Virus record (IMG/VR): IMGVR_UViG_3300029258_005760
Span: 1 to 24,549 of that record
DNA: 24,549 nt
Strand: one strand, 5' to 3'
Source: a virus
In this document: one piece after another, positions 2 to 14,912 of the stretch
Position numbering within the stretch: the first letter of the stretch is position 1
How the letters are laid out: every line of letters begins with the position of its first letter
Made by a program: the position numbers and the translations under genes
Notes under the pieces: model-generated
Told to the model about the DNA's origin: nothing
The model's database searches: none
What the model saw: the letters and a program-made list of their open reading frames with translations, nothing else

Positions 2-82
2 CGAGAGTTCGGCGGCTCGGCGTTCGGCGTCCGCGCCGTGGAGGCTCAGGACGGGCCCATCGCAAGGGAGTGCGAGCGATGA
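2..82 (+). CDS. 3' end of an upstream gene (partial, unknown product)
   Basis: The frame starting at base 2 is open from the window edge and ends at a TGA at 80-82, giving a 26-residue C-terminal tail with charged residues near the end (ends ...IARECER). Its stop overlaps the ATG at 79 of the next gene in an ATGA arrangement, the same coupling used throughout this phage. That coupling is the main reason to call it a real gene end. Nothing in the short tail identifies a function. Confidence 0.5.
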   Translation, partial: REFGGSAFGVRAVEAQDGPIARECER

Positions 83-1101
83 GGTCCGTCCTGACCTTCT
101 CGGCCATCAACTGCTTCCGCAACTGCCCGCGGAAGTTCAAGCACCGCTACATCGACCTCCTGCGGCCGGTGGAGAAAGCCGAGGCGCTGGCCTTCGGCGA
201 CGTGATCCACCAGGCGCTGGAGCGGTGGCACACCCGCCCGGCCGACAACCGGCGGATGCTGGAGGTGCTGGCGCTGCTCGACGCCAAGTACCCCGGCCGG
301 GACACCAAGGCCACGCAGAAGTCGGCCTGGCACCTGGCGCGGGCGATGATGATGGGTTACGTCGAGCGGTACGCCCAGGAGGAATTCGAGGTCCTCCACG
401 CCGAAAAGCAGTTCGAGGCCGAAATCCGCAACCCCGACACCGGCCGGCTCAGCCAGACGTTCACCATCGCCGGCAAGGTCGACGGGATTGTCCGAGTGGG
501 CGACGAACTGTACCTGCTGGAGCACAAGACGGCCTCATCGCTCACATCGGACTACCTCGACCGGCTGTGGACCGACACGCAGATCGCCCTGTACTGCTTC
601 TACCTCCGGCAGCAGGGCTTCCCCATCGTCGGCGTCATCTACAACGTCCTGTTGAAGTCCCGCCTTCAGCAGCGCGCCGGCGAGACGGACGCCGAATTCG
701 AGGCCCGACGCACGGCGCTGGCGGCCAAGAACAAGAGCGGCAAGTCCACGGCCAAACGCCAGGAGCCCGAGTCTGACGAGCAGTTCGCCGCCCGCCTCCA
801 CGAGTGGTATACCCGGTCGGAGGCCTTCCACCGCGAGCGCATCTACCTCTCCGAGGACCGCCTGGCGATGCTCCAGGAGGAGGTCTGGGAGATCACGCAG
901 CAGTACCTGGACGCCAAGGGCCGCGGCAAGTGGCTGATGAACACGTCCAACTGCTTCAGCTACCAGCGGCCCTGCGAATACCTGCCGTACTGCCAGAGCA
1001 GCTTCAACCCCAACGTCCGCGACAACCTCTACCAGATCGTCCCTGCGCACGAGGAGCTGGCGACCGCCGCCGTCGCGGAATCCACCGACAGCGACTTCTA
1101 A
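79..1101 (+). CDS. RecB/Cas4-like PD-(D/E)XK nuclease with Fe-S cysteines
   Basis: Predicted DNA exonuclease of the PD-(D/E)XK superfamily (PDDEXK_1, RecB/Cas4-like), acting in phage DNA recombination or processing. The catalytic set is visible: H44 in GDVIHQAL, D135 in AGKVDGIV, and E148-x-K150 in LLEHKTAS. Cysteines near the N-terminus (C12, C16) and three at the C-terminus (C292, C299, C305) match the split four-cysteine iron-sulfur pattern of Cas4/AddB-type nucleases. I chose ATG 79 over the in-frame GTG at 70 because AAGGGAG (64-70) sits about 8 nt before ATG 79, and because ATG 79 overlaps the previous stop as ATGA. The product is 340 aa. It is followed by a Sak4-like ATPase and a DUF669 protein, a common phage recombination set. 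No CRISPR array or other cas gene is near, so it is not called Cas4. Confidence 0.85.
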   Translation: MRSVLTFSAINCFRNCPRKFKHRYIDLLRPVEKAEALAFGDVIHQALERWHTRPADNRRMLEVLALLDAKYPGRDTKATQKSAWHLARAMMMGYVERYAQEEFEVLHAEKQFEAEIRNPDTGRLSQTFTIAGKVDGIVRVGDELYLLEHKTASSLTSDYLDRLWTDTQIALYCFYLRQQGFPIVGVIYNVLLKSRLQQRAGETDAEFEARRTALAAKNKSGKSTAKRQEPESDEQFAARLHEWYTRSEAFHRERIYLSEDRLAMLQEEVWEITQQYLDAKGRGKWLMNTSNCFSYQRPCEYLPYCQSSFNPNVRDNLYQIVPAHEELATAAVAESTDSDF

Positions 1102-1113
1102 GGAGCAATCCTC

Positions 1114-1863
1114 ATGGCCATCGCGCTACCCAAGGAAAAGACCAAGCTCTCGCTGGACCTGTCCAGAAAGACCATCTTGGTGTACGGCCCGCCGAAGATC
1201 GGCAAGTCGACCTTCGCCAGCCGGTTCCCCCACGCCTTGTTCTTCGAGTGCGAGCCGGGGCTGAACGAGCTGGAGGTCTTCAAGGTCCCCACGTACTCGT
1301 GGGCGGACTTCCTGGCTGCCTGCAAGCTCGTCGCCACCGGCGATCACCCGTTCAAGACCATCGTCGTCGATACGGTGGACAATGCCTTCAAGCTCTGCAG
1401 CGAGCACATCTGCGCCCAGCAGAAGATCGACTACGAGGGCGACCTGGAGCACGGCAAGGGCTGGGCGTTCGTGAAGAACGAGTGGCACCGCGTCCTGACG
1501 CGGCTGGCCAGCCTGCCGTACGGGCTGGTCCTGATCAGCCACGCCACCGACAAGCAGATCAAGACGCGGACGGAGGAGTACACCAAGACCCAGCCCAGTC
1601 TGCCCGACCGGGCCCGCAACGTCGTGCTGGGGCTGGTGGACATCATCCTGTATTGCGACACGATTACCCGCAAGGGCAAGGACGGCGGCGCCACCATCGA
1701 GCGGGTGATTCGCACCAAGCCCAACCCCGCCTACGAGGCCGGCGACCGCACCGGGCGGCTGCCGGAGACCCTCGCTTTGGACTTCACCGCGTTCTGCAAG
1801 GCCTTCGCGGAAGGCCGGCAGGCTGCCCAGACTGCCGCCCCCAACGGCAAGGAGACCAAGTAA
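1114..1863 (+). CDS. Sak4-like RecA-fold ATPase (AAA_24)
   Basis: A 249-aa P-loop NTPase of the phage nucleotide-binding family (AAA_24, Sak4-like), predicted to act as a single-strand annealing or RecA-like recombinase in the cytoplasm. Walker A is YGPPKIGKST at residues 24-33 (K31). Walker B is TIVVDTVD at residues 82-89 (D86). A later segment, LVLISHATDKQIKTR, fits the strand and sensor region of RecA-like cores. The ATG at 1114 follows AAGGAG (1100-1105) by about 8 nt. The stop overlaps the next ATG as TAATG. The neighbours, a Cas4-like nuclease upstream and a DUF669 protein downstream, form the usual Sak4-SSB-exonuclease trio of phages, which supports the role by context. A generic P-loop ATPase without annealing activity remains possible. 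Confidence 0.85.
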   Translation: MAIALPKEKTKLSLDLSRKTILVYGPPKIGKSTFASRFPHALFFECEPGLNELEVFKVPTYSWADFLAACKLVATGDHPFKTIVVDTVDNAFKLCSEHICAQQKIDYEGDLEHGKGWAFVKNEWHRVLTRLASLPYGLVLISHATDKQIKTRTEEYTKTQPSLPDRARNVVLGLVDIILYCDTITRKGKDGGATIERVIRTKPNPAYEAGDRTGRLPETLALDFTAFCKAFAEGRQAAQTAAPNGKETK

Positions 1864-2351
1864 TGACCCCCGAAACGAATGCCTTCGATCAGCCCGAGTA
1901 TGACCCCAACGCTCCCGACCAGGTCGGCGGCGGCGTGGACCTCGCGGCCTTTGACGAGGAGTACGAGCAGGCCGAGGCCCCGGCCTTCGACGAGGTGCCC
2001 GACGGCAAGTACCAGGTCCGCATCGAGTCCGTGAGGATGGCCGAGAGCCAGAAGCACGACCCGATGATCAAGTGGGACTTGATCGTCATCTCCGGCCAGT
2101 TCGAGGGCCGGCACATCTTCAAGAACTCGGTGATCACGCAGGCGTCGCTGCCCTTCGTCAAGGGCGACCTGAAGACCTTGGGCCTGCAGCTGCCCAAGTT
2201 CAGCGACCTGCCCAACCACCTGGAGGAGCTGCTGGACAAGCGGCTCCAGGTCACCAAGCGGACCAAGGACGAGTTCACCAACGTGTACTTCAACAAGCTC
2301 CTGGCCATCCCTGACGGCGGCGGGCTGCAGGGCGAACCCGCGCCCTTCTAG
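1863..2351 (+). CDS. DUF669 family protein, probable ssDNA-binding partner
   Basis: A 162-aa acidic protein matching the DUF669 family found beside Sak4/Sak3-type recombinases in phages; members are thought to be OB-fold, SSB-like proteins. Visible family features are VPDGKYQVRIESV after an acidic N-terminal stretch, IKWDLIVISGQFEGRHIFKN, LPFVKGDLKTLGLQLP, and VTKRTKDEFTNVYFNKLL near the C-terminus. The start ATG overlaps the stop of the ATPase gene (TAATG), implying translational coupling. A longer in-frame reading exists upstream, but it runs through the nuclease and ATPase genes in another frame and is not credible. The tRNA-like gene starts 9 nt after the stop. The single-strand binding role is inferred from family and context. 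Confidence 0.8.
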   Translation: MTPETNAFDQPEYDPNAPDQVGGGVDLAAFDEEYEQAEAPAFDEVPDGKYQVRIESVRMAESQKHDPMIKWDLIVISGQFEGRHIFKNSVITQASLPFVKGDLKTLGLQLPKFSDLPNHLEELLDKRLQVTKRTKDEFTNVYFNKLLAIPDGGGLQGEPAPF

Positions 2352-2359
2352 GCGGGCGA

Positions 2360-2432
2360 GGCGGGGCTGGGCGTTGGCGTACCCGCGAGGCTCATAACCT
2401 CGAGCTCGTCGGTCCGAATCCGACCCCCGCCT
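2360..2432 (+). tRNA. tRNA-Met/Ile2-like gene, anticodon CAT, with unusual conserved positions
   Basis: A 73-nt cloverleaf can be drawn by hand. The acceptor stem GGCGGGG (2360-2366) pairs fully with CCCCGCC (2425-2431), with discriminator T2432 and no encoded CCA. The D-stem is only GGG/CCC (2369-2371/2382-2384). The anticodon stem CGAGG/CCTCG (2386-2390/2398-2402) is perfect with loop CTCATAA, anticodon CAT at 2393-2395. The T-stem GTCGG/CCGAC (2408-2412/2420-2424) is perfect with loop TCCGAAT. Several near-invariant residues differ: C at position 8 instead of U, G instead of A14, and C at position 55 in the T-loop. It could be a working phage tRNA, a tRNA-Ile2 whose C34 is modified, or a decaying copy. 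Confidence 0.6.
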
Positions 2433-2440
2433 GTAGGGAC

Positions 2441-2493
2441 GCGCGTGGGATGGCGTGCCGAACGGACCGGCCAGACTCCCCGCGCCCACGCGC
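2441..2493 (+). repeat. Inverted repeat between the tRNA and the ERCC4 nuclease gene
   Basis: GCGCGTGGG at 2441-2449 is the exact reverse complement of CCCACGCGC at 2485-2493, with a 35-nt loop. It starts 9 nt after the tRNA-like gene and ends 30 nt before the nuclease start. It could form a leader hairpin or help tRNA processing. In GC-rich sequence a 9-bp match can arise by chance, and no U-tract follows, so it is not a terminator. Confidence 0.3.
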
Positions 2494-2523
2494 GCCCCTC
2501 CAACATCCGCAAGGACCGGTGGA

Positions 2524-2970
2524 ATGGACTTCCGAATCGTCATCGATACGCGAGAGCAGGAACCCTACGACTTCGACTGCGCAACGCAGCGCCGCAAGCT
2601 CGAGGCCGGGGACTACTCCGTGGCCGGCCTGGAGGACGCGGTGGCTGTGGAGCGTAAGAGTCTCCGGGACTTCGTCTCCACGGTGATCCACGACTTCACG
2701 CGGTTCGCGGTCGAGCTACAGAAGCTCTCGAAGCTCGGCGCCGCGTGCGTGGTGGTCGAGGCCGACCTGGACCAGGTCCTGCGCGGCCTGGCCGCCGGCG
2801 CGTGCGGCAACGTCGCGCCCGAGTCGCTGTTGGGGGCGACGGCGCACATCTCGCTGCACTTCGGTGTGCCCGTCTTCTGGTGCGGCAGCCGCCAGGCGGC
2901 GCGGGCCTTCACGGACGCCTTCCTGCGGATGTTCGTGCGCCTGCGGGCGCGGGGGGGCGAGCGGCCATGA
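2524..2970 (+). CDS. ERCC4-domain (XPF/Mus81-type) nuclease
   Basis: A 148-aa stand-alone ERCC4 nuclease domain, predicted to cut branched or flap DNA during recombination or replication. The catalytic signature is present in order: IDTREQ (residues 7-12), LEAGDYSV (residues 26-33, D30), then ERKSLRDF (residues 43-50), matching the GDY...ERKxxxD motif of XPF/Mus81 and archaeal Hef. No helicase domain or HhH repeat is attached, as is usual for phage and archaeal-virus versions. ATG 2524 follows AAGGA at 2511-2515. An upstream in-frame ATG at 2455 would run through the inverted repeat and gives a Pro/Arg-rich tail unlike the family, so it was rejected. The stop overlaps the next ATG as ATGA. 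Confidence 0.85.
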   Translation: MDFRIVIDTREQEPYDFDCATQRRKLEAGDYSVAGLEDAVAVERKSLRDFVSTVIHDFTRFAVELQKLSKLGAACVVVEADLDQVLRGLAAGACGNVAPESLLGATAHISLHFGVPVFWCGSRQAARAFTDAFLRMFVRLRARGGERP

Positions 2971-3137
2971 TCCGCATGAACTTCTACGACTACCTGAAGG
3001 AGGAACTGGCCCACGGCGGCCTGTGGGAGTGGGCCAAGGACCGGCCGTACCGGGAGGTCATCGCCAAGCCCGAGATCATCTTCGCCCACGAGCGGGCGTG
3101 GAAGCGGCTCCGGGAGGCGGAGGCCAGACATGACTGA
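2967..3137 (+). CDS. Small hypothetical protein (56 aa)
   Basis: A 56-residue protein coupled to both neighbours: its ATG overlaps the nuclease stop (ATGA) and its stop lies inside the start of the next gene. It is rich in aromatic and charged residues (NFYDYLKEEL, GGLWEWAKDRPYREVI) and looks mostly helical. There are no cysteines, signal peptide or membrane segment. I do not recognise a family. Placement suggests an accessory in the recombination module. The tight overlap and lack of a better frame support it being real. Confidence 0.6.
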   Translation: MIRMNFYDYLKEELAHGGLWEWAKDRPYREVIAKPEIIFAHERAWKRLREAEARHD

Positions 3138-3435
3138 CACGCTGTGCCTCCGCAACACGCTGCACAGCCACCAGGAGCGCGACCGCCGCCGGCCGAGCAC
3201 CGACAGCAACCGCTATCCCGGCCACGAGCAGCGGATGGCCTGGCACATGATGCAGGTCCGCAACCACGCCTGCCCGTGCGGCAGCAAGGAGCGCTTCGGC
3301 GCCTGCTGCTTGGGCAAGTGCCGCTGCAAGCGGTGCGGCAAGGTCTTCCTGCTTCCCGACGGCGGCCCGGAGGCCTGCCCCGCCTGCGGTTCGGACGAGG
3401 TGGCGGTCGTGCATCTGAAGGAGGTGTGCGGATGA
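3130..3435 (+). CDS. SEC-C motif plus zinc-ribbon protein
   Basis: A 101-aa protein with two metal-binding parts. The middle (about residues 48-61) reads ACPCGSKERFGACC, a SEC-C motif (CxC...CC) as seen at the SecA C-terminus and in many small zinc proteins. It is followed directly by a zinc ribbon: CRCKRCGKVF, then EACPACGSDEV. The first 45 residues are Arg/His-rich without a recognised fold. It probably binds nucleic acid or protein through zinc; the target is unknown. Start and stop overlap the neighbouring genes (ATG inside the previous gene end, stop inside GGATGA before the next), so it belongs to the same translationally coupled operon. Confidence 0.7.
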   Translation: MTDTLCLRNTLHSHQERDRRRPSTDSNRYPGHEQRMAWHMMQVRNHACPCGSKERFGACCLGKCRCKRCGKVFLLPDGGPEACPACGSDEVAVVHLKEVCG

Positions 3436-3632
3436 GGACCTGCGAGGCATGCGGGCGGGAGTTCACGCTCGTCCATAGGGACCCGACCTGCCCGTACTGC
3501 GGCTACAACACCGACCCCCGGAGCCCTCTTCCGCGAAGCAAGGCGTCGCTGGCGCGGATGGAGCAGGACCGTCAGGAACAGGAAGAGAGGGAGCGGGAAC
3601 TGAATGAGTATCTCGGCGCCGCCACAGACTGA
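3432..3632 (+). CDS. Small zinc-ribbon protein with charged helical tail
   Basis: A 66-aa protein. The first 25 residues form a CxxC...CxxC zinc ribbon (RTCEACGREF ... DPTCPYCGYN). The rest is a highly charged helix (MEQDRQEQEERERELNEYL), likely coiled coil. It may be a nucleic-acid-binding or adaptor protein, but the partner is unknown. The ATG at 3432 overlaps the previous stop, and its last codons overlap the start of the RecD2-like helicase at 3604, so it may be translated together with the helicase. Confidence 0.65.
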   Translation: MRTCEACGREFTLVHRDPTCPYCGYNTDPRSPLPRSKASLARMEQDRQEQEERERELNEYLGAATD

Positions 3633-5796
3633 ATCCCCGGCGATCCGGGGCGTGGTGCACCGCGCCTTCTTCTCCAGCCCGTCGTTCTCGGCGGGGCTGC
3701 TGAGGACGGAGGACGGCAGCTTCGTCCGCTTCCGCGGGAGCTTTCATGCGACCGAGGGCGACAGCGTCGCGCTGATCGGCCGGTGGGTCAAGGACGCCAA
3801 GTTCGGCCGCCAGTTCGAGGTCGAGCAGCTCTGCTATGACCTGCCCGACACGCACGACGGGCTGGTTCAGTACCTGGCGTCGCATCCGGCCTTCAAGGGC
3901 ATCGGCCTGAAGACCGCCGAGAAGCTCGTGGCGCACGCCGGGGACGGCGAGTCTCTGGACCGGCTCCTGCGCGGCGACCTGGAGGATCTGCACCGGCGGC
4001 TGCGGATTCCGCTGCCGGTGCTCCGGACGCTCCGCGACGCATGGATCGCCAGTGCCGCCGAGAACGAAATCCGCGCCTTCCTGGCGGGCTTCGGCCTGAC
4101 TGGCCAGCAGACCACCACGCTGCTGGAGACCTACGGCAACGCCGTGGTCGGCATCCTGCGGAACGACCCCTACGTGCTCATCAAGCACCTCGACGGCTAC
4201 GGCTTCAGACGGGTGGACAAGATCGCCCGCAGGATGGGCGTGCCCAAGAACCACCCCGGACGCATTGAGGCGGCGATCACATACTGCCTCACCGAGGAGC
4301 TGGCCGGCGGTCATACCTGGACGGCTGGCAGCGACCTGCTGGACAAGGCCAACGAGGTCCTGTTCCTGGACGGCCTCGACAGCCGCGACACCATCCGCAA
4401 ATCCGCCGACTCCCTACTGGAAGAAGGGCGTATCGTCGCCGACGGCAGCGCCGTCAGCACGTCTTGGATCAGGGACGCCGAGAGGCTAATCTTCGACACC
4501 CTTCGGACGCACGCCCGGGCCGTGAGCCCCATTCCGCACGCAGCCGATCCGCGCCTCAATGCCCGCCAGCAGGTTGCCTTCGACAACGCGCTGAGCCACA
4601 GCATTTCCGTCATCTCCGGGGGGGCCGGCACAGGCAAGACGTTCGTCGTGTCGCGCCTGGCCGAGACGTTCCGCACCCGTGGCATCTCGGCCGCTCTCTG
4701 CGCACCGACGGGCAAGGCCGCCAAGCGGATCGAGGAGCTGATGCGCCTTCACGGCGTGGACCTCGAGGCCGCCACAATCCACCGCCTGCTGCGGTATGAC
4801 GGCCGCCGCTTCAATCTCGTCAGCCTCTCCGACGGGATCATCGACACCCCTCAGCCGGGCCGAACCGGCGAATCCCATCCCGGCTACGACGCCGTCATCG
4901 CCGACGAGGTGTCGATGGTCGACGTCCCGCTGCTGGCCGAGCTGCTCAGGCGGATCGACTTCGCCAGGACGCGCCTGGTCCTGGTGGGCGACCACAACCA
5001 ACTGCCGCCGGTTGGCCCGGGCAACGTCCTGCGGGACGTCATCCACCACAACCTCGCGCCGACGACCGTGCTGACAGAGGTGGTCCGCCAGGCGGGAATC
5101 CTCAAGGCCAACAGCACGAGGATTCTCTCGGGCGCCGTCGCGCCCACGGCCGTCAACGACCCGGCGTGGGCCGTGATCGACTCGTTTCGCGAGGCCGGGC
5201 ACATCGCGGCCTACTTGCGCGAGCTGATCCTGAGGATGATCCCCGAACGGCTGGGCTACGACCCGGTCTGGGGCGTCCAGATCATCACACCCACGCACAA
5301 GGGGCCGCTGGGCACGAAGGCCATCAACGAGATGATGCAGTTCCTGCTGCACGGGCGCGCCGAGCGGAGGTTCGCCGTCGGCGACAAGGTCATTCAGACG
5401 GCCAACGACTATGAGATGGGCGTGATGAACGGCACCATCGGCCGGGTCGTGGACTGCGGCCGCGACGGCTGCCACGTGGATTTCGACGGGCGAATCCACG
5501 AGATCGGCCGGGATCGGTTGGGCAACCTCCAACTCGCCTACGCGCTGACCGCCCACAAGGCCCAGGGCAGCGAGTTCCCCTGCGCCGTCGTCATCTGCCA
5601 CAGATCCCACTACTTCGCCGACCGCAACTGGCTCTACACCGCGGTGACGCGGGCCGCGAAGACCTGCATCCTCGTGGGCGACCGCTGGGGCCTGCAGCAC
5701 GCCGCCGACAAGAACAACACCATCGCCAGGCGCACGTTCCTGGGGCTGTGGTCGGCGCGGGCGGCCCGGACGCCGGGCACGGAGGGAACTCCATGA
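3604..5796 (+). CDS. recD2-like: RecD2-like SF1B DNA helicase
   Basis: A 730-aa superfamily 1B helicase of the RecD/TraA type, expected to unwind DNA 5'-3' in phage replication or recombination. The N-terminal part has the OB-like segment and helix-hairpin-helix region typical of RecD2 (for example FKGIGLKTAEKLVAHAGDG). The motor follows: Walker A GGAGTGKT at residues 339-346 (K345), CAPTGKAAKRIEEL, Walker B/DExx ADEVSMVD around residues 433-440 (D434, E435), VGDHNQLPPVGPGNVL, and near the C-terminus TAHKAQGSEFPCAVV (UvrD_C_2, residues about 646-660) and YTAVTRAAK. Length is close to bacterial RecD2. It is RecD2-like because no RecB/RecC partner is present; the Cas4-like nuclease upstream could cooperate with it. 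Confidence 0.92.
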   Translation: MSISAPPQTESPAIRGVVHRAFFSSPSFSAGLLRTEDGSFVRFRGSFHATEGDSVALIGRWVKDAKFGRQFEVEQLCYDLPDTHDGLVQYLASHPAFKGIGLKTAEKLVAHAGDGESLDRLLRGDLEDLHRRLRIPLPVLRTLRDAWIASAAENEIRAFLAGFGLTGQQTTTLLETYGNAVVGILRNDPYVLIKHLDGYGFRRVDKIARRMGVPKNHPGRIEAAITYCLTEELAGGHTWTAGSDLLDKANEVLFLDGLDSRDTIRKSADSLLEEGRIVADGSAVSTSWIRDAERLIFDTLRTHARAVSPIPHAADPRLNARQQVAFDNALSHSISVISGGAGTGKTFVVSRLAETFRTRGISAALCAPTGKAAKRIEELMRLHGVDLEAATIHRLLRYDGRRFNLVSLSDGIIDTPQPGRTGESHPGYDAVIADEVSMVDVPLLAELLRRIDFARTRLVLVGDHNQLPPVGPGNVLRDVIHHNLAPTTVLTEVVRQAGILKANSTRILSGAVAPTAVNDPAWAVIDSFREAGHIAAYLRELILRMIPERLGYDPVWGVQIITPTHKGPLGTKAINEMMQFLLHGRAERRFAVGDKVIQTANDYEMGVMNGTIGRVVDCGRDGCHVDFDGRIHEIGRDRLGNLQLAYALTAHKAQGSEFPCAVVICHRSHYFADRNWLYTAVTRAAKTCILVGDRWGLQHAADKNNTIARRTFLGLWSARAARTPGTEGTP

Positions 5797-6662: not shown

Positions 6663-9133
6663 GCGACTCGCCGCGCGATCCCGCAACAGAAACACCGCCT
6701 CGGCAATCGCCGGCCGTGGAGAACATCCCGCCGGCCCTGCGCGCCCTGCCCCAGTGGGTTGGGTGGAAGTACATCGAGCGCGACGGCAAGCCCACCAAGT
6801 GCCCCGTCAACGTCAGGACCGGGGCGATGGCGGATTCCACCGATCCCTCGACATGGGCGCCCTTCGACGAGGCGCTGGCCGCTTACGGGCAGTCGTCGGA
6901 CCTCGCGGGCGTGGGGTTCGTCTTCGCCGCCGGGGGCGGCTTCTGCGGCGTCGACTTGGACGACAGCATCGATCCGTCCACCGGGCAGCTCAAGCCCTGG
7001 GCCGCTGAGATCGCCGGGAAGCTGAACTCCTACACGGAGATCTCCCCGTCTGGCCGGGGCGTGAAGGTATTCCTCCGCGCCGCCAAGCCGGGGGCGCGCT
7101 GCCGCAGGGGCTACGAGGACGGCGAGATCGAAATCTACGACTCCGGCCGCTTCTTCACCGTCACGGCCCTGCGGATGGACGCCTTCAGCCCCGACGTGGA
7201 AGAGCGTCAGGCGCAGCTTGAAGAGCTGTACGCTGCGGTGTTCGGCGGGTCCGATCCGCCTTCACCGCCGGCAGCCCCGGCACCCGTGCCGGCAGCGTCC
7301 GCCCCGGCTCCCGCCCTCGATGACGACGAGGTCATCCGCCTGGCCAGCCGCGCCCGCAGGAACGGCCGGAAGTTCGCCGCCCTGTGGGAAGGGCGATGGA
7401 ACGACTACTTCAACTCGGCCAGCGAAGCCGACTCGTCGGTGATCTTCACGCTGGCCTTCTACACCAAGGACGCCCCGCAGATCGACCGCGTGTTCCGGCG
7501 CAGCGGCCTCATGCGGGACAAGTGGGATGAGCCGCGAGGCGAGAGTACCTACGGCCGGGAGACTATCGCCAAGGCGCTGGCGAAGGTCACGGGGCAATAC
7601 CAGCCCCGCGGCAGGCGGGTTGCGAAGACCGCAGCCGCTAAGCCGGGCCCACCCGATGCACCGGTGCCCGCTGAACCAACAATGCTCTTGCCCCTCGGCT
7701 CGCGCGACCCGGACACCGGCAGGCTGGTTCTGTCCATGTCGCGGACGCTGCCGACGGCCGAGGCCTATGTGCGGGAGTTCCGCACCCACGCCGACGGCCG
7801 CACGCTCCACAGCTACGCCGGCATCCTAATGGGCTGGCAGGGCAACCGCTACGCCGAGGTCGAGGATGAGACGATCAAGAACCAGATCCAGCCCTGGCTG
7901 CATGATGCCGTCCACTACGTCTGCAACCGCCGGACAAAGGAGATGGAACTCAAGCCCTTCCCGGCCAACCCGGGCACAATCAAAGCCGCCCTGGACTCGG
8001 CCCGCACGCTGACGCACCTGCCGGCCAGCCTGACGCCCCCGTTCTGGCTGGGCGATCCGGCCGGCAGGACCGACCCGCGGGAAGTCCTCTCCTGCAGGAC
8101 GCTGAACCTGCACATCCCGGCCGGGCGGGTCTTCCCGGCCACGCCGGCGCTGTTCAACACCAACTCGCTGGAGTTCGACTACGATCCCGATGCCGAAGTG
8201 CCTGAGAAGTGGCTGCGATTCCTGGATGAGCTGTGGGGAAGCGACGCCGAGTCCGTCGGGCTCCTGCAGGAATGGTTCGGGTATTGCCTGACCGCCGACA
8301 CCAGCCAGCAGAAGATGCTCCTGCTGCTGGGGCCCAAGCGCTGCGGCAAGGGCACCATCGGCCGCGTGCTGACCCGCCTGGTGGGCGCCGGCAACGTGGC
8401 GGGGCCGACCACATCCAGCCTGGCCGGCCCGTTCGGGCTCCAGCCGCTCATCGGAAAGTCGCTGGCCATCGTCTCGGACGCCCGCTTCAGCGGCAACGAC
8501 ATCGCCATCGTAACCGAGCGGCTGCTGTGCATCAGCGGTGAGGACGCCCTGACCATCGACCGCAAGCATATCGGGTCGGTGACGATGAAGCTGCCCACCC
8601 GGTTCATGTTCCTGACCAACGAGCTGCCCAGGGCCAACGACGCCTCCGGCGCGCTAGCCGGGAGATTCCTGGTGCTGCGCTTCACCAGGAGCTTCTTCGG
8701 GCGGGAGGACAAGGAGCTGACGAACAAGCTGCTGACCGAGCTGCCCGGCGTCCTGCTCTGGGCGCTGCAGGGCTGGCAGCGCCTGCGCGAGAGGGGGCGG
8801 TTCGTCCAACCGGCGGGGGTCGAGGACGCCATCGGCGATCTGGAAGACCTCTTCAGTCCTGTCGGGGCGTTCGTGCGCGACCTCTGCGTCGTGGGGATGG
8901 GCAGGTCGGTGGAGGCAAGCGAGCTCTTCGCGTCGTGGCGGGAATACTGCCAGACCATCGGGCGGACGAACATGGGGACGATCCAGACCTTCGCCCGCGA
9001 CCTGCGCGCCGTCGTTCCGGGCCTGCGAGTCAGCCAGCCTCGGATGGCCGGGGGACGGATGCGCTGGTACGAGGGCATTGCGCTGGCCGGTGCGCAGGAT
9101 GATGCGCAAGGGGGTGCGCGCGATGGTGAATAG
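6659..9133 (+). CDS. Primase (AEP, NrS-1-like) fused to SF3 replicative helicase
   Basis: An 824-aa replication initiator. The N-terminal region (about residues 20-190) resembles archaeo-eukaryotic primase/primase-polymerase domains of NrS-1 type: IPPALRALPQWVGWKY, then FCGVDLDD with candidate metal-binding D99 and D101, then SPSGRGVKVFLRA and GEIEIYDSGRFF. The middle is an Ala/Pro linker (residues about 200-225) and a helical region. The C-terminal half is a D5_N/SF3 helicase: Walker A GPKRCGKGT at residues 558-566 (K564), SLAIVSDARFSGND as Walker B region, PTRFMFLTNELPR as motif C, and an Arg-finger region AGRFLVLRF. It would both prime and unwind at the phage origin. The ATG overlaps the previous stop. 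The iteron-like region begins 26 nt after its stop, as expected for an initiator next to its origin. Confidence 0.9.
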   Translation: MSDSPRDPATETPPRQSPAVENIPPALRALPQWVGWKYIERDGKPTKCPVNVRTGAMADSTDPSTWAPFDEALAAYGQSSDLAGVGFVFAAGGGFCGVDLDDSIDPSTGQLKPWAAEIAGKLNSYTEISPSGRGVKVFLRAAKPGARCRRGYEDGEIEIYDSGRFFTVTALRMDAFSPDVEERQAQLEELYAAVFGGSDPPSPPAAPAPVPAASAPAPALDDDEVIRLASRARRNGRKFAALWEGRWNDYFNSASEADSSVIFTLAFYTKDAPQIDRVFRRSGLMRDKWDEPRGESTYGRETIAKALAKVTGQYQPRGRRVAKTAAAKPGPPDAPVPAEPTMLLPLGSRDPDTGRLVLSMSRTLPTAEAYVREFRTHADGRTLHSYAGILMGWQGNRYAEVEDETIKNQIQPWLHDAVHYVCNRRTKEMELKPFPANPGTIKAALDSARTLTHLPASLTPPFWLGDPAGRTDPREVLSCRTLNLHIPAGRVFPATPALFNTNSLEFDYDPDAEVPEKWLRFLDELWGSDAESVGLLQEWFGYCLTADTSQQKMLLLLGPKRCGKGTIGRVLTRLVGAGNVAGPTTSSLAGPFGLQPLIGKSLAIVSDARFSGNDIAIVTERLLCISGEDALTIDRKHIGSVTMKLPTRFMFLTNELPRANDASGALAGRFLVLRFTRSFFGREDKELTNKLLTELPGVLLWALQGWQRLRERGRFVQPAGVEDAIGDLEDLFSPVGAFVRDLCVVGMGRSVEASELFASWREYCQTIGRTNMGTIQTFARDLRAVVPGLRVSQPRMAGGRMRWYEGIALAGAQDDAQGGARDGE

Positions 9134-9159
9134 CCCCTGCAAAGCATGTTACGCTGCCT

Positions 9160-9179
9160 TGGCACGCGGTGGCACGCGT
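9160..9179 (+). repeat. Iteron-like repeat copy 1
   Basis: TGGCACGCGGTGGCACGCGT. The unit is itself two GGCACGCG octamers 10 bp apart (9161-9168 and 9171-9178). A third, partial octamer, GGCACGCA, follows at 9183-9190. The preceding T (9159) is also shared with copy 2. Confidence 0.85.
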
Positions 9180-9238
9180 GCCGGCACGCAGTCCTTCGTA
9201 AACCTGAAGACCAATGCAAACAAGCATTTAGATGCTGT

Positions 9239-9258
9239 TGGCACGCGGTGGCACGCGT
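9239..9258 (+). repeat. Iteron-like repeat copy 2
   Basis: Identical 20-bp direct copy of the repeat at 9160-9179, 79 bp downstream, again preceded by T (9238). Octamers lie at 9240-9247 and 9250-9257. Confidence 0.85.
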
Positions 9259-9271
9259 ATTTCCCAAAAAT

Positions 9272-9315
9272 CACGCACGCGTACGGGCGCGCATGCGCGC
9301 ACACGCGCACGCGCG
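9272..9315. other. Alternating purine-pyrimidine tract (Z-DNA-prone)
   Basis: Bases 9287-9315 alternate purine and pyrimidine without a break for 29 nt, almost all GC or CA steps. Bases 9272-9285 alternate for a further 14 nt; the phase is broken only around 9286. Long (GC/CA)n alternation is the classical Z-DNA-forming sequence under negative supercoiling. It is centred between the two inverted iteron copies. Whether it forms Z-DNA in the cell cannot be seen from sequence. Confidence 0.7.
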
Positions 9316-9343
9316 AGAAGGCGGATAGCTGCAAGCGCACGGA

Positions 9344-9363
9344 ACGCGTGCCACCGCGTGCCA
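9344..9363 (-). repeat. Iteron-like repeat copy 3 (inverted)
   Basis: ACGCGTGCCACCGCGTGCCA is the exact reverse complement of copies 1 and 2. Together with copy 2 it brackets the alternating purine-pyrimidine tract, giving an overall inverted arrangement with an 85-bp centre (9259-9343). Confidence 0.85.
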
Positions 9364-9423
9364 GGACGAACCAGGCTTCTATCGCCAGCGCTGACGTTGG
9401 CGGCCCTGTCGGGAGGTCCACGC

Positions 9424-9627
9424 ATGTACGAGTTCCGCAGACCGGCGCGGACCACTGCGCCTTCACGTTCCCTCGCGAGCCTCACGGAGGACGAGCGCTG
9501 CGCATGGGAGGAGCGGGTGGCCATCTGCACCATCGACGGCGGGCTGCCGGAGGAGCGGGCGAAAGAGATCGCATGGGCGCAGATCAAGGCCGGTCGAATG
9601 GCGCGGTCAGTATCGCATTCGGCGTAG
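9424..9627 (+). CDS. Small hypothetical phage protein (67 aa)
   Basis: A 67-aa protein with a good start: GGGAGG at 9411-9416 precedes ATG 9424 by 7 nt. The central part, TEDERCAWEERVAICTIDGGLPEERAKEIAWAQI (seen here as two short helices), resembles a motif of the form W-x-ER-x(5)-GG-x-x-x-x-x-A common in small prophage proteins and in tails of primases or zinc-finger proteins. No enzyme activity can be proposed. It is the first gene after the candidate origin and could be controlled by the iterons. The longer in-frame start at 9232 lies in the repeat region and is unlikely. Confidence 0.6.
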   Translation: MYEFRRPARTTAPSRSLASLTEDERCAWEERVAICTIDGGLPEERAKEIAWAQIKAGRMARSVSHSA

Positions 9628-9892
9628 CGGGGTCGCGCCACGTTGGCGCAGGTTCGACGATCTCCCTCCGAGCCGAGCAAGGATACGGCCCGCCAGCGGC
9701 GCGCCGCGGTGGCGCGGCATGGCAAAGAGGGCAAGGTGGGCAAGATCGCATAGGTACTCCGCCGGCTTCTGTTGCGGAAGACGGCGGCGGGAACAGTCGG
9801 GAATGGAGTTTCTGTTGGTTGCCGGTGAAAGAACACGGATGAACCGGGCCCGGCCAGACGCCGGGCTGGTACGGAAAGGACTGGAGACAGCC
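9628..9892 (+). other. Intergenic region without a convincing gene
   Basis: This stretch of about 265 bases separates the small gene from the methyltransferase gene. I see a perfect 7-bp hairpin GCCCGGC/GCCGGGC at 9848-9866, but no U-tract terminator and no clear promoter. A 36-codon reading frame from TTG 9643 to TAG 9751-9753 encodes a basic, Lys/Arg-rich peptide but has no ribosome site. The methyltransferase frame also runs open upstream to ATG 9719, but the Shine-Dalgarno fits ATG 9893. Confidence 0.4.
9848..9866 (+). repeat. Hairpin GCCCGGC-CAGAC-GCCGGGC
   Basis: A perfect 7-bp stem with a 5-nt loop, 27 nt before the methyltransferase start. The same stem sequence recurs at 13447-13465 in the leftward operon. 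No T-run follows, so it is not a standard terminator; it may be a shared regulatory or mRNA-stability hairpin. Confidence 0.4.
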
Positions 9893-11203
9893 ATGCAAGT
9901 CAGACTGGTGAACATCGACAACGTGAAGCCCTACGAATCCAACCCCCGCGTCAACGAAGGCGCGGTGGATGCCGTGGCGGCGAGCCTGCGGGAGTTCGGA
10001 TTCAGACAGCCCATCGTGGTGGATGAGCAGAACGTCATCATCGTCGGCCACACGCGGTGGAAGGCGGCGAAGAAACTGGGGCTGGCCAAGGTACCCGTCC
10101 ACGTCGCCAGAGACCTGACTCCGGAGCAAGCGAAGGCCTATCGGCTGGCAGATAACCAGACGAACACGCTGGCCGAGTGGAACTACGAGCTTCTGCCCAT
10201 CGAGCTGAAGGACCTCCAGGCGGCGGACTTCAACCTGGACCTGTTGGGCTTCGACGCCGAGGAACTGTCCAGGCTTCTCGATCCGGGCGTCCAGGAAGGA
10301 CAGGCCGACCCGGACGAGGTGCCCGCGCCGCCGGATGAGGCCGTCACCCGCCCCGGCGACCTGTGGCTGCTGGGCAACCACCGCCTTCTGTGCGGCGACA
10401 GCAGTAAGGCCGAGGACGTCGACCGGCTGCTGGACGGCGCGGCGGTCCAGTTGGTCAATACCGACCCTCCGTATAATGTCGGCGTCGCCAGCCGCAGCAA
10501 CAACGCCATCGCCGCCTCCGGCGACCGGCCCATCGGCCAGCAGGGCATGGACATCGCCATCCGCAAGGGCGAGCACAAGGTGGACAAGAAGCTGCGGGCC
10601 AAGGACCGCGCGCTGGTCAACGACTTCATCTCCGACGAGGAGTTCGCCCGCTTGCTCCGCGCGTGGTTCAGCAACATCCAACGCGTGCTGGAGCCCGGGC
10701 GGTCCTTCTACATCTGGGGCGGCTACTCCAACATCTGGAACTACCCCAACGCGCTGAAGGAGTGCGGGCTCTATTTCAGCCAGATGATCATCTGGGTCAA
10801 AGAGCACCCGGTCCTGACGCGCAAAGATTTCATGGGGAACCACGAATGGTCGTTCTATGGGTGGCGCGAGGGGGCGGCGCACAAGTTCTTCGGGCCCGCC
10901 AACGTCACCGACGTCTGGTCGGTGAAGAAGGTCAACCCGCAGTCGATGGTGCACCTTACCGAAAAGCCCGTCGAACTGGCCGTCCGCGCCATCTCGTACT
11001 CCTCGCTGGCGGGCGAGAACGTCCTGGACCTGTTCGGCGGCTCGGGCAGCACGTTGATCGGCTGCGAGCAGACTCACCGCAAGGCCTTCCTGATGGAGAT
11101 CGACCCGCTGTACTGCGACGTGATCGTGCAGCGATGGGAACAGTTCACCGGCAAGAAGGCCGAGCGGATCACCGCCCGGGAAGCCGTGGAGGTGGGCGCA
11201 TGA
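9893..11203 (+). CDS. ParB-domain N6-adenine (or N4-cytosine) DNA methyltransferase
   Basis: A 436-aa fusion. Residues 1-90 form a ParB/Srx-like nuclease-fold domain (LVNIDNVKPYESNPRVN, QPIVVDEQNVIIVGHTRWKAAKKLG, ADNQTN). After a linker rich in Asp/Pro comes a beta-class amino methyltransferase. Catalytic motif IV is NTDPPYN with D191, and the SAM-binding motif I near the C-terminus is LDLFGGSGS (F381) followed by KAFLMEIDPLYCDVIVQRW. The order, catalytic motif before SAM motif, defines the beta group. It would methylate phage DNA, probably to protect it from host restriction or to mark it; no partner restriction enzyme is present. ATG 9893 follows GGAG by 6 nt. The stop overlaps the next ATG (ATGA). 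Whether adenine or cytosine is modified cannot be fixed; DPPY favours adenine. Confidence 0.9.
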   Translation: MQVRLVNIDNVKPYESNPRVNEGAVDAVAASLREFGFRQPIVVDEQNVIIVGHTRWKAAKKLGLAKVPVHVARDLTPEQAKAYRLADNQTNTLAEWNYELLPIELKDLQAADFNLDLLGFDAEELSRLLDPGVQEGQADPDEVPAPPDEAVTRPGDLWLLGNHRLLCGDSSKAEDVDRLLDGAAVQLVNTDPPYNVGVASRSNNAIAASGDRPIGQQGMDIAIRKGEHKVDKKLRAKDRALVNDFISDEEFARLLRAWFSNIQRVLEPGRSFYIWGGYSNIWNYPNALKECGLYFSQMIIWVKEHPVLTRKDFMGNHEWSFYGWREGAAHKFFGPANVTDVWSVKKVNPQSMVHLTEKPVELAVRAISYSSLAGENVLDLFGGSGSTLIGCEQTHRKAFLMEIDPLYCDVIVQRWEQFTGKKAERITAREAVEVGA

Positions 11204-12466: not shown

Positions 12467-12871
12467 CTACACGGGAAGCGGCTTGACCTCGAAGGCGCAC
12501 ACCCAAAGCTCGCCGTCGGCTGTGCGGTGCTCGTCGCACTGATCGCCGCTGGTGACGTCCACGCGATAGGCGGTTCCGGTGTCGTCGGTCTCGACCTCGC
12601 GGACGATTGCCTGTGCCTTCTGAAGGCCCTGGTCGATGCTGACGGCCACGCGCGTCCCGACGCCGATGGCGGCGCGGCCCGCCTGCCGGACGGGCAGGTC
12701 CAGCCGACGGCGAAGGCGAGCCGCCGACCGAACGCGGACGGTTCGCTTGGTCTGCTCGTTCACCGCGTCCCACCCGCCGTAGGGACTCTCGCCCGTGATG
12801 CGGACGGGGACGACCTTGCCGCTGACCTTCGCCGCGTAGACACCGCCGATGATGACCTCGTTCTTCTTCAT
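12467..12871 (-). CDS. Hypothetical protein, paralogous N-terminal domain of neighbour
   Basis: A 134-aa protein, last gene of the leftward operon. Residues 6-50 (IIGGVYAAKVSGKVVPVRIT ... KRTVRVRS) align by eye with the first 45 residues of the upstream neighbour (IQIGLVYSAKVGGTFLPVRI ... GKTVKTC). The pattern G-x-VY-x-AKV-x-G-x-x-x-PVRI looks like a small beta-barrel (SH3/KOW-like); this is a guess from the strand pattern. The remainder has more beta-like segments and no catalytic motif. The start (reverse strand, CAT 12869-12871) follows GAAGGAGG placed inside the end of the upstream gene. It probably arose by duplication of that domain. Confidence 0.65.
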   Translation of the reverse strand: MKKNEVIIGGVYAAKVSGKVVPVRITGESPYGGWDAVNEQTKRTVRVRSAARLRRRLDLPVRQAGRAAIGVGTRVAVSIDQGLQKAQAIVREVETDDTGTAYRVDVTSGDQCDEHRTADGELWVCAFEVKPLPV

Positions 12872-12874
12872 GGT

Positions 12875-13426
12875 CTACTTTGCCTCCTTCCCGGCGGCGG
12901 TGCGAGCGGCGATGCCCGCGGCCGTCAACTCAAAGTGGCCCCGGTCGATCTTGCGGAACCGGCTGGCGTCGCCCTTGACGGCGATCTCGCGGATGATGGC
13001 CGCGTAGATGGTCGCCGCCGGCGTCTTGCCGTTGGTCTTCCACAGGCCCGTCTCCAGCATCCGCTTGACCATGTCCGCCGTGTTCATCGGCTTGCCCGCT
13101 TCGGCCAGCACGGCGACCGCCGCGTCCAACCCGCTGGGCTTGCGCTCCTTCTTCGTCTTGGGCGTGGCGGCAGCCCTGGGCTTCTTGGTCTTGGGCTCGG
13201 CCGCTGCCACAGGAGCGTCCTTCGGCTTGCGCCGGGCCTGCCACTGCTCGACCGTCTCGCCAGCGCCCTTGACGGCGTCCGTGCAGGTCTTGACCGTCTT
13301 GCCGCTGGACATGCAGACGCCCTCGTAGCGCCCGTGCCCCAGCGACTTGTCGATCCGCACTGGCAGGAACGTCCCGCCGACCTTCGCGCTGTACACCAAC
13401 CCGATCTGAATCTGCTTCTTCGCCAT
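12875..13426 (-). CDS. HARE-HTH domain protein with basic linker
   Basis: A 183-aa protein with three parts. Residues 1-50 are the same VY-AKV-G-PVRI domain as the next gene. Residues about 66-100 are a Lys/Ala/Pro-rich linker (EPKTKKPRAAATPKTKKERK). Residues about 101-168 match the HARE-HTH winged-helix fold: LDAAVAVLAEAGKPMNTADM, MLETGLWKTNGKTPAATIYA, and the final RFRKIDRGHFELT. HARE-HTH domains occur in ASXL, RNA polymerase delta subunit and restriction/modification proteins and are proposed to read modified or structured DNA. It likely acts as a DNA- or RNA-polymerase-associated regulator. ATG at 13424-13426 follows AGGAG on the reverse strand; an in-frame start at 13456 has no ribosome site. 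Confidence 0.75.
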   Translation of the reverse strand: MAKKQIQIGLVYSAKVGGTFLPVRIDKSLGHGRYEGVCMSSGKTVKTCTDAVKGAGETVEQWQARRKPKDAPVAAAEPKTKKPRAAATPKTKKERKPSGLDAAVAVLAEAGKPMNTADMVKRMLETGLWKTNGKTPAATIYAAIIREIAVKGDASRFRKIDRGHFELTAAGIAARTAAGKEAK

Positions 13427-13446
13427 GGTACTGCTCCTTATGTTGG

Positions 13447-13465
13447 GCCCGGCCACGCGCCGGGC
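13447..13465 (-). repeat. Hairpin GCCCGGC-CACGC-GCCGGGC in the leftward operon
   Basis: A perfect 7-bp stem with a 5-nt loop between the 13472-13846 gene and the HARE-HTH gene. Its stem sequence is identical to that at 9848-9866. On the reverse strand it lies about 20 nt upstream of the HARE-HTH start, where it could influence translation or mark an RNA-processing site. Confidence 0.4.
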
Positions 13466-13471
13466 GGTTGC

Positions 13472-13846
13472 TCAAAGTCCGACTTCCTCGCTGAGGGCGT
13501 TGTACTGCTCGCCCAGCATGTCCAGCAGTTGCGCGGTGAACCACGCGACCTCGCCGTTGACCTTCTCGTCCTTGGTGTTCACCAGGCCGTGGAGATGGGC
13601 CGCGATGGCGGCGACCGCCTGCGGCGAGAGGTTGTCCCGCATGACCTCCTGGACGACCTCGCGGGGCGAGCCGGTGTAGGTGAAGCGGTGCTCGCACGGC
13701 TTGCACCCGAGCTCGTGGTCGCGGTCCCAGAAGGCGAGGATTTCCGCGTGGCTGTAGCCCTTGCCCCGCAGGTACTTCAGGTCGGTGGGCGAGTACATGG
13801 GGTGCCTGGCGATGCGGTCGGCCGTGCTCTCGTTGTTCTTGCTCAT
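13472..13846 (-). CDS. Hypothetical protein (124 aa), leftward operon
   Basis: A 124-aa, mostly helical protein. Notable segments are DLKYLRGKGYSHAEILAFWDRD, reminiscent of a short helix-turn-helix, then CKPCEHRF with a CxxCxH arrangement that could bind metal only if another ligand exists. The C-terminal half (SPQAVAAIAAHLHGLV, AWFTAQLLDMLGEQY) is amphipathic helix. I do not recognise a family. The start follows TAGGAGACCACC on the reverse strand. It lies 9 nt downstream of the previous gene in the same operon. Confidence 0.6.
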   Translation of the reverse strand: MSKNNESTADRIARHPMYSPTDLKYLRGKGYSHAEILAFWDRDHELGCKPCEHRFTYTGSPREVVQEVMRDNLSPQAVAAIAAHLHGLVNTKDEKVNGEVAWFTAQLLDMLGEQYNALSEEVGL

Positions 13847-13855
13847 GGTGGTCTC

Positions 13856-14083
13856 CTACCGGCTGCGGACGATGGTCAGTTGCCACTCGGTGCTGTCGGC
13901 CATCGTGATGACCAGCCCGGCGTTGTTGGTCAGTACGCCTTCCTCTTCGAACGTGCGGACGCGCTGCACGTCGGCCAGGGCGCTGGCGCTGTCCAGCCCG
14001 GCGTCGGCGCGGTCCTCGTCGTCCATGAAGGCGAGCTCTTCCAGCAGGCTCTTGATGGCGTCTTGGAGTTCGTTCTCGTTCAC
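13856..14083 (-). CDS. Small acidic hypothetical protein (75 aa)
   Basis: A 75-aa acidic protein starting with GTG (reverse strand, 14081-14083) behind AAAGGA. The first half is an acidic helix (LQDAIKSLLEELAFMDDEDRAD); the second half has two likely beta-strands (GLVITMAD, EWQLTIVRS). No cysteine, membrane segment or known motif is visible. Small acidic proteins of early phage operons are sometimes inhibitors of host enzymes or DNA mimics; nothing here proves that. Confidence 0.55.
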   Translation of the reverse strand: MNENELQDAIKSLLEELAFMDDEDRADAGLDSASALADVQRVRTFEEEGVLTNNAGLVITMADSTEWQLTIVRSR

Positions 14084-14095
14084 GGTCGTGTCCTT

Positions 14096-14278
14096 TCAGT
14101 TGGTGCGTGCGGCCCGGATGCACTCGTCGCGGTGGGCGCGGGCCTCGTCCACCAGCGCGGCCAGTTCGGGGTCGCTGCAGTCGATGCCGCGCTCGCGGAC
14201 TTCCTTCACGAGGGCGTCGAGGCAGTCGGCGGCGTCGAGCAGGACCTTTCTCACGTGCTTCTTCTTGGCGGGCGTCAT
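14096..14278 (-). CDS. Small helical hypothetical protein (60 aa)
   Basis: A 60-aa protein with a basic start (MTPAKKKHVRKVLL) followed by helices containing two separated cysteines (ADCLDALV, DCSDPELAALVDEARAH). The reading frame is tightly packed between its neighbours, with AAAGGAG on the reverse strand before the ATG at 14276-14278. I do not recognise it. It may be a small helical-hairpin protein. Confidence 0.5.
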   Translation of the reverse strand: MTPAKKKHVRKVLLDAADCLDALVKEVRERGIDCSDPELAALVDEARAHRDECIRAARTN

Positions 14279-14305
14279 GATGCTTCGCTCCTTTCTCGCG
14301 GCTGG

Positions 14306-14581
14306 TCAGTCGGCGAGCTGCTGAATCAGCCGGTAGTAGTCGTGGATCATCGAGTTCGTCCCGCGGCAGCCGTCCAGCGCCTCCTGGAGCGCGGTGGCCA
14401 CGGCGAACTGCTCGTTCTCGGACCGGGCGCTGGCGGTCAGCTTGCGGATGCGGCTGTGGACGCCGAACCGCCCGCATCGCGGCGTGGAGATGGTCACCTC
14501 GATGACGTTCTCGCCGCTGGCGCGCTGGATGGTGCCGGTGGCGCCGCTGTCGCCCTGGATGTCGATTCGCGTGATCTTCAT
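14306..14581 (-). CDS. Hypothetical protein (91 aa), leftward operon
   Basis: A 91-aa protein whose first half looks beta-rich (MKITRIDIQGDSGATGTIQR, NVIEVTISTPRCGRFGVHSR) and whose second half is helical (ENEQFAVATALQEALDGC, IHDYYRLIQQLAD). Start ATG at 14579-14581 on the reverse strand follows GAAGGAAG. No family recognised. Strand-then-helix order fits a small alpha/beta fold. Coding potential is supported by a clean start and the conserved operon spacing of 12-30 nt to its neighbours. Confidence 0.55.
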   Translation of the reverse strand: MKITRIDIQGDSGATGTIQRASGENVIEVTISTPRCGRFGVHSRIRKLTASARSENEQFAVATALQEALDGCRGTNSMIHDYYRLIQQLAD

Positions 14582-14593
14582 GGTCGTCTTCCT

Positions 14594-14836
14594 TCACTCG
14601 GCGTTCAGCGCCAGGATGGTGCTGGGCGTGTAGCCGCACCGGCGGGCCTCGGCGTTGATGGCCTTGCGGACGGCGCTGCCGGGGGCGTGGGACTCGTAGA
14701 TGGCGGCCAGGCGCTTCCAGCCGAGCGTCTCGATCCGCCGCCGGCCGTTGCGGCCCCGGGAAAGCAGCCAGTCGAGGTCCACCGTGGCCGGGTCGCGGTC
14801 GCGTCCGGCGAGCTTGATGGTCGTGTTCTTCTTCAT
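14594..14836 (-). CDS. Hypothetical protein (80 aa), first gene of the leftward operon
   Basis: An 80-aa basic protein: MKKNTTIKLAGRDRDPATVD, then GRNGRRRIETLGWKRLAAI and a C-terminal helix with CGYTPSTILALN. I chose the ATG at 14834-14836 because AAAGGAAA lies about 7 nt upstream on the reverse strand. The alternative start at 14866 would put the 12-bp palindrome 14854-14865 inside the gene. As the first gene after the palindromic sites it may be the most tightly controlled. It could bind nucleic acid, given its charge, but no motif proves it. Confidence 0.55.
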   Translation of the reverse strand: MKKNTTIKLAGRDRDPATVDLDWLLSRGRNGRRRIETLGWKRLAAIYESHAPGSAVRKAINAEARRCGYTPSTILALNAE

Positions 14837-14853
14837 CGCGGTTTCCTTTCGCA

Positions 14854-14865
14854 TGTTCATGAACA
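14854..14865. promoter_or_regulatory. Operator-like palindrome TGTTCATGAACA
   Basis: A perfect 12-bp palindrome 17 nt upstream of the first leftward gene and within the divergent intergenic region. Perfect twofold symmetry of this size next to a transcription start region is typical of a repressor or activator site. No matching regulator is assigned, and no -10/-35 pair is convincing. Confidence 0.5.
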
Positions 14866-14912
14866 CATCAGGCCGTGGCTTTCGCGCCCCGCCAAGGGGA
14901 TTCGGCCCGGAT

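Follow-up and report, generated by a model that had tools for sequence, protein, structure and literature searches.

A candidate replication origin of the PICI/SaPI type with a Z-DNA-prone spacer, located 3' of a phage primase-helicase gene

The initiator gene and the adjoining intergenic region

The window, which is the whole stretch of 24,549 nt that was analysed, encodes a large terminase, a portal and a capsid protein of its own, as identified by Pfam, and is therefore part of a phage and not of a satellite; a PICI satellite was ruled out on the same grounds. The putative initiator gene (Table 1) matches the Pfam domains PF22763, PF19263 and PF08706 and, among PDB sequences, 7ola and the NrS-1 entries 6a9w and 6k9a. 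The combination of PrimPol and helix-bundle domain (HBD) that marks NrS-1-type replicases is present, with E values of 1.9e-24 for PF22763 and 1.9e-38 for 6a9w. In an AlphaFold model of the last 112 residues (pLDDT 78), the C-terminal domain is an RFX-like winged helix, which Foldseek matches with a probability of 1.0 to the DNA-binding domains of RFX5 and RFX1. The profile match of this domain to the winged helix of phage P4 (1ka8) is weak (E 0.28), and the RFX fold matches far better. A 471-residue model of the helicase together with the winged helix (pLDDT 90) has the SaPI5 primase-helicase 7ola as its best match, followed by African swine fever virus PrimPol, NrS-1 and mpox E5.

The gap between the initiator gene and the next open reading frame contains three exact copies of the 20-mer TGGCACGCGGTGGCACGCGT, two of them direct and one inverted, and the record holds no other copy. 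The first begins 26 nt past the initiator stop. Each copy is composed of two 10-bp units and carries two GGCACGCG octamers 10 bp apart; a seventh octamer is created by the palindrome ACGCGTGCC at 9175-9182, and all seven octamers of the window lie within this region. The inverted-repeat score of the region is 21.5, compared with a maximum of 14.5 in shuffled sequence. The second and third copies face each other across an unbroken purine-pyrimidine alternation of 29 nt, which together with a shorter run makes 9272-9315 nearly continuous in alternation. Besides the AT-richer patch between copies 1 and 2, there is a second one at 9259-9272. The small ORF that bounds the gap on its 3' side is conserved and has relatives in L091 and L093. 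The preliminary description of this DNA had reported the three repeats, their paired octamers, the facing arrangement around the alternating tract, the first AT-richer patch and the position directly after the primase-SF3 helicase gene, and each of these is present to the base or at the place described.

Table 1. Features of the initiator gene and of the candidate origin (positions in the window)
Feature	Position	Strand	Basis
Initiator gene: NrS-1-type PrimPol, helix-bundle domain (HBD), D5_N/SF3 helicase (DUF5906), C-terminal RFX-type winged helix	6659..9133	+	Pfam, PDB sequence matches, start codon
Codons of the C-terminal winged helix, predicted iteron reader	8885..9085	+	AF2 model, Foldseek, coevolution with iteron sequence
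Recognition helix of the winged helix	~8981-9013	+	
Wing of the winged helix	~9026-9085	+	
Whole intergenic candidate origin, 290 nt	9134..9423	.	Limits: initiator stop, small ORF 9424-9627
Iteron pair 1, accessory copy; 10-bp units TGGCACGCGG/TGGCACGCGT	9160..9179	+	
Degenerate extra half-site GGCACGCA	9183..9190	+	Sequence
AT-richer patch separating iteron pairs 1 and 2	9191..9238	.	Sequence
Iteron pair 2, left arm of the core inverted pair	9239..9258	+	Layout kept in relatives
14-nt purine-pyrimidine alternation in a different phase from the main tract	9272..9285	.	Sequence
29-nt unbroken purine-pyrimidine alternation, Z-DNA-prone, partly palindromic	9287..9315	.	Longest in window; clade-wide at same place
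Iteron pair 3, right arm of the core inverted pair	9344..9363	-	

Conservation of the element

Relatives of the helicase were gathered both from viral contigs and from the genomes of bacteria, mainly Planctomycetota; many of the loci, denoted here by L numbers, come from MAGs. The 300 nt past each helicase stop were examined, with an inverted-repeat score of at least 16 as the threshold. Among relatives of at least 38% identity, 29 of 40 reach this score, as against none of the 1179 other gene ends at the same loci. Eight relatives score below 14. Five of these (L013, L018, L109, L111 and L115) gain the element when the search is untied from the first called stop, and two (L010 and L114, score 12) have arrays that are still recognisable; L015 alone of the eight yielded no element 3' of the helicase. 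At the score threshold used, most relatives below 38% identity have no element. An out-of-sample search of 392 genomes from the phylum added ten new, non-duplicate relatives with 54% identity or more, and every one of them carries it. The preliminary description had made its case depend on the repeats recurring at this place in related phages, and inverted tandem iterons are indeed found there.

The arms in the relatives, like those of the window, are built of tandem units of about 9-10 bp. The gene downstream of the element differs between relatives while the element stays with the helicase, and the element therefore belongs to the helicase gene. The layout is shared by proteins with three types of N-terminal primase, namely NrS-1 PrimPol-HBD, PF09250 Prim-Pol and TOPRIM.

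In many relatives, among them L010, L011, L012, L091, L093 and L104, a second conserved motif, CATTGC...GCAATGG, also inverted, borders the iteron arms on their inner side. Its GCAAT side is the commoner one, and the window has a decayed form, GCTGCAAGCG, near 9331. The motif is possibly a site for a host protein or for the initiator.

Searches by nucleotide sequence and by single protein were less informative: blastn of the gap against phage records gave no match, and a single-protein scan gave no close viral relative. A search of viral contigs for the exact 20-mer returned two loci. One, L005, is genuine, with paired copies 3' of a related helicase. The other, a lone copy at L004:4341-4360 in a 64.8-kb viral contig where the helicase was not detected, was rejected as probably a chance, stray or unrelated copy. 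Four loci found with a relaxed repeat pattern (L006-L009) were likewise set aside, being single matches with no helicase match at the locus and in several cases situated in apparently coding sequence.

Correspondence between repeat and winged helix

The sequence of the repeat is lineage-specific. Repeats of the GTGGCACGCG type are found in the window, L090, L091, L105 and L017, TGGAACGCG in L116 and L153, ACTGTCGCG or ACCGTCACG in L010, L011, L095 and L100, AACCAGCGCG in L102 and AACAAGCGCG in L099; others include ACYGTCRCG and AACMAGCGCG. Similarity between iterons was compared with similarity between the proteins in a sample of about 41 phylogenetically related sequences. Once helicase-core similarity has been removed, the likeness of iterons is correlated with that of winged helices (partial r 0.40, a value that none of 2000 permutations matched), although permutation p values are optimistic because the relatives share kinship. 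The reverse test, of iterons against the helicase core, gave nil (partial r -0.07). A sliding-window scan for coevolution peaks at residues 752-811, the last 60 residues of the protein.

The clearest case of the repeat following the winged helix is the locus L005/L017, a natural domain swap. Its N-terminus is unrelated (TOPRIM-type by a weak Pfam match), its portal is unrelated and its helicase is only 48% identical. It carries the window's 20-mer and an inverted copy just 3' of the helicase, and its winged helix has the signature of the window, GT-x-x-TF-x-RDLRA...TQPR. Closer relatives with other repeats have a shortened wing, ending RRR or similar. The later-found L153 and L170 conform to the same rule, with TGG-type repeats and an LRA-type recognition helix. 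Since the same layout occurs with three primase N-termini, it is the C-terminal domain that the repeats follow, not the primase. Most likely, the iterons are bound by the initiator's own C-terminal winged helix.

The alternating tract

The longest alternation in 200 dinucleotide shuffles of the window was 22 nt (mean 15.3), 7 nt shorter than the real tract. Among the 20 relatives of at least 54% identity, a set that includes the window itself and loci of 3-24 kb, the spacer of less than 200 nt holds the longest alternation of the locus in 15 and one of the three longest in 18. The binomial p against random placement is ~1e-26, and the result would be far from chance even if such runs were confined to non-coding DNA. 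Among less similar relatives the count was one of 23. In a later test on ten new relatives the longest run fell in the spacer in seven. The spacer of L150 has an unbroken alternation of 36 nt 3' of the helicase and that of L173 one of 33 nt; as the helicase of L173 is only 28% identical, Z-prone spacers extend beyond the main clade. The predicted Z-prone centre is a clade-wide feature and not a curiosity of one sequence.

The tracts vary in sequence (GCGC-rich, GTGTGTG, ACACAC) and have alternation as their common trait; their step composition is mixed. Substitutions inside them are 32 transitions to 7 transversions, compared with 197 to 222 outside, a bias that is partly circular because transitions are the sole differences possible between two alternating tracts in phase. 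A rough two-state estimate places the B-Z threshold of the window tract at a sigma of about -0.037.

The base composition of the spacer separates the clade from other relatives. The mean of spacer GC minus locus GC is -0.001 in the Z-prone clade and -0.15 in the others; the AT content of the spacers in the less similar relatives is thus raised by 15 percentage points, a trait also described for PICI origins. The window spacer has 59% GC and differs in this respect from the AT-rich spacer of an origin of the PICI/SaPI type.

Relation to known origins and proposed mode of action

SaPI Rep proteins bind iterons 3' of their own gene through a C-terminal domain (PMC7581432), and in PICIs two sets of iterons flank a melting region (PMC6092414), a 3' layout said to be common to no known bacterial replicon but PICIs (PMC6092414). 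The SaPI/PICI module, i.e. Rep or Pri-Rep with the 3' ori, resembles the present locus in combining a primase, an SF3 helicase and a C-terminal DNA-binding domain (PMC6092414, PMC7581432), as well as in structure (7ola). In both, the origin or candidate origin lies immediately 3' of the gene, with two facing iteron sets around a spacer. The present elements, however, belong to phages that encode a terminase, a portal and a capsid of their own and, in this clade, have a Z-prone tract in a spacer that is not AT-rich. The 3' iteron origin of PICIs and SaPIs is already known, and the locus appears to be a variant of it in which a conserved Z-prone tract stands in place of the AT-rich spacer.

Other systems are more distant. 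In the archaeal plasmid pRN1 the origin lies 3' of the gene for ORF904, a PrimPol-SF3-winged-helix protein (PMC4234260), and an initiator of this kind with an origin just 3' of its gene is also part of the proposal for BIP-1-type phages (PMC4234260). The pRN1 origin is, however, described as a stem-loop of ~100 bp without iterons, whereas clear arrays of 10-bp iterons are found here. The primase-polymerase of phage NrS-1 has a homologous N-terminal PrimPol and HBD (PF22763), but recognition there is described as involving an 8-nt template site, present twice in the middle of the genome (PMC7102993), and no 3' iteron origin. The alpha protein of phage P4 is a multifunctional primase-helicase whose C-terminal winged helix binds iterons (PMC4234260); unlike the window's initiator, it has a primase of the TOPRIM type.

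The preliminary description had proposed a phage replication origin, and the comparison with relatives, both in the frequency of the element and in the coevolution of repeat and winged helix, strongly supports this reading, with an origin of the PICI/SaPI 3' type in tailed phages, chiefly those of Planctomycetota. We infer its function as follows, and consider it very probable that the phage replicates from this gap. The RFX-like winged helix of the initiator would bind the inverted, 10-bp-spaced iterons, and the facing arrays would seed a pair of helicase rings around the spacer. With its Z-prone alternation instead of the usual AT-rich sequence, the spacer would be the first site of duplex distortion or opening, and the PrimPol domain would prime on the exposed strands. 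This assessment covers the 24.5-kb record, and the rest of the phage genome may hold other origins. The cumulative GC skew of the record, which had been suggested as a check, bears the proposal out in part: its minimum, at 8647, is ~0.5 kb from the element and speaks weakly for it, but it is confounded by gene direction, and among the relatives examined only about one third have a minimum near the element.

A tentative further proposal concerns the tract itself. The clade may have exchanged the AT-rich melting spacer of the SaPI type for a conserved Z-DNA switch, as a selected part of a prokaryotic origin. Negative supercoiling would flip the tract to the Z form, and the B-Z junctions, or the twist freed when the rings bind, would provide the entry point for the SF3 helicase. 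A literature search, in which subscription journals were mostly outside coverage, returned no paper uniting Z-DNA, iterons and a replication origin. If the proposal is true, selection has made Z-DNA a functional component of a prokaryotic origin. The conserved alternation allows the role of Z-DNA in opening an origin to be tested directly in small, cloneable systems. The two-iteron-set layout of PICIs is now seen in tailed phages and in prophages, combined with any of three N-terminal primase types, and the matching of winged helix to iteron within each lineage amounts to a natural recognition code amenable to swaps.

Alternative explanations

The tract could work as a hairpin or cruciform, in the manner of the pRN1 stem-loop, and not as Z-DNA, which is possible but doubtful. 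The pRN1 origin requires its stem-loop at the equivalent place relative to the PrimPol-helicase (PMC4234260), several tracts are palindromic, and hairpin energies in the clade are slightly better than those of alternation-preserving shuffles (mean z -0.74, n=20; L090 -2.9). The window tract, however, is no better than such shuffles and, with a z of only -0.29, its foldability is explained by alternation alone. L014, L104 and L106 have little hairpin but have kept alternation or a low Z energy, and the tracts differ in sequence yet remain alternating. A stem-loop origin of the pRN1 type as such was rejected, given the iterons and the hairpin potential of the window.

It is rather unlikely that the tract is a sequence-specific site for a protein, such as a host factor or the primase starting at GTG/CAC, with the alternation incidental. 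NrS-1 Pol and ORF904 do prime at GTG-type sites (PMC8718748), and CAC or GTG is present in most tracts. The tract sequence is nevertheless not conserved, and the runs of L099 and L020 have neither triplet. A tie between the tract and one PrimPol type was also rejected, as the tract accompanies PF09250 PrimPol and TOPRIM N-termini as well.

In phage P4 the arrangement is split, with iterons both at ori and at crr. By analogy, the present element might be a cis-acting site for copy control or incompatibility, or an enhancer of late replication like crr, with the true origin elsewhere. This is improbable: the repeat pattern occurs once in the window record, and the 3' iteron region of PICIs sustains autonomous replication (PMC6092414).

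Still less probable is a neutral origin of the tract as a microsatellite or as the product of methyl-CpG decay. Such decay (CG to CA/TG) does keep alternation, but the run occupies the same short slot across genomes, in most cases as the longest of its locus, and its steps are not those of a single repeat unit.

That the element is a transcription terminator, an operator of the downstream gene or a structured RNA, as its intergenic position and inverted arms might suggest, is hardly credible: a scan of the element gave no plus-strand terminator and no promoter match, Rfam gave no match near the gathering score (matches far below threshold were driven by the inverted symmetry), the downstream gene varies, and the repeat sequence tracks the winged helix of the helicase. 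The candidate origin is the reading retained for the element.

Neighbouring genes

Upstream of the initiator gene, positions 70-5796 contain a recombination cluster of a Cas4/PDDEXK-like exonuclease, AAA_24, a small unnamed protein, an ERCC4 nuclease and a RecD2 helicase, the order of which is identical in L012, L090, L091, L096 and L099. Downstream of the candidate origin, positions 9719-11203 encode a ParB_N domain fused to an N6/N4 DNA methyltransferase, and related genes follow the element in L011, L012, L090, L096, L099 and L103. The genome is otherwise plus-strand, and a block at 12467-14866 has several small genes on the minus strand and a strongly negative AT skew. The capsid domain is found only in the C-terminal 300 residues of a single ORF of 756 aa (19941-22211), the N-terminal half of which is probably a fused head-maturation protease.
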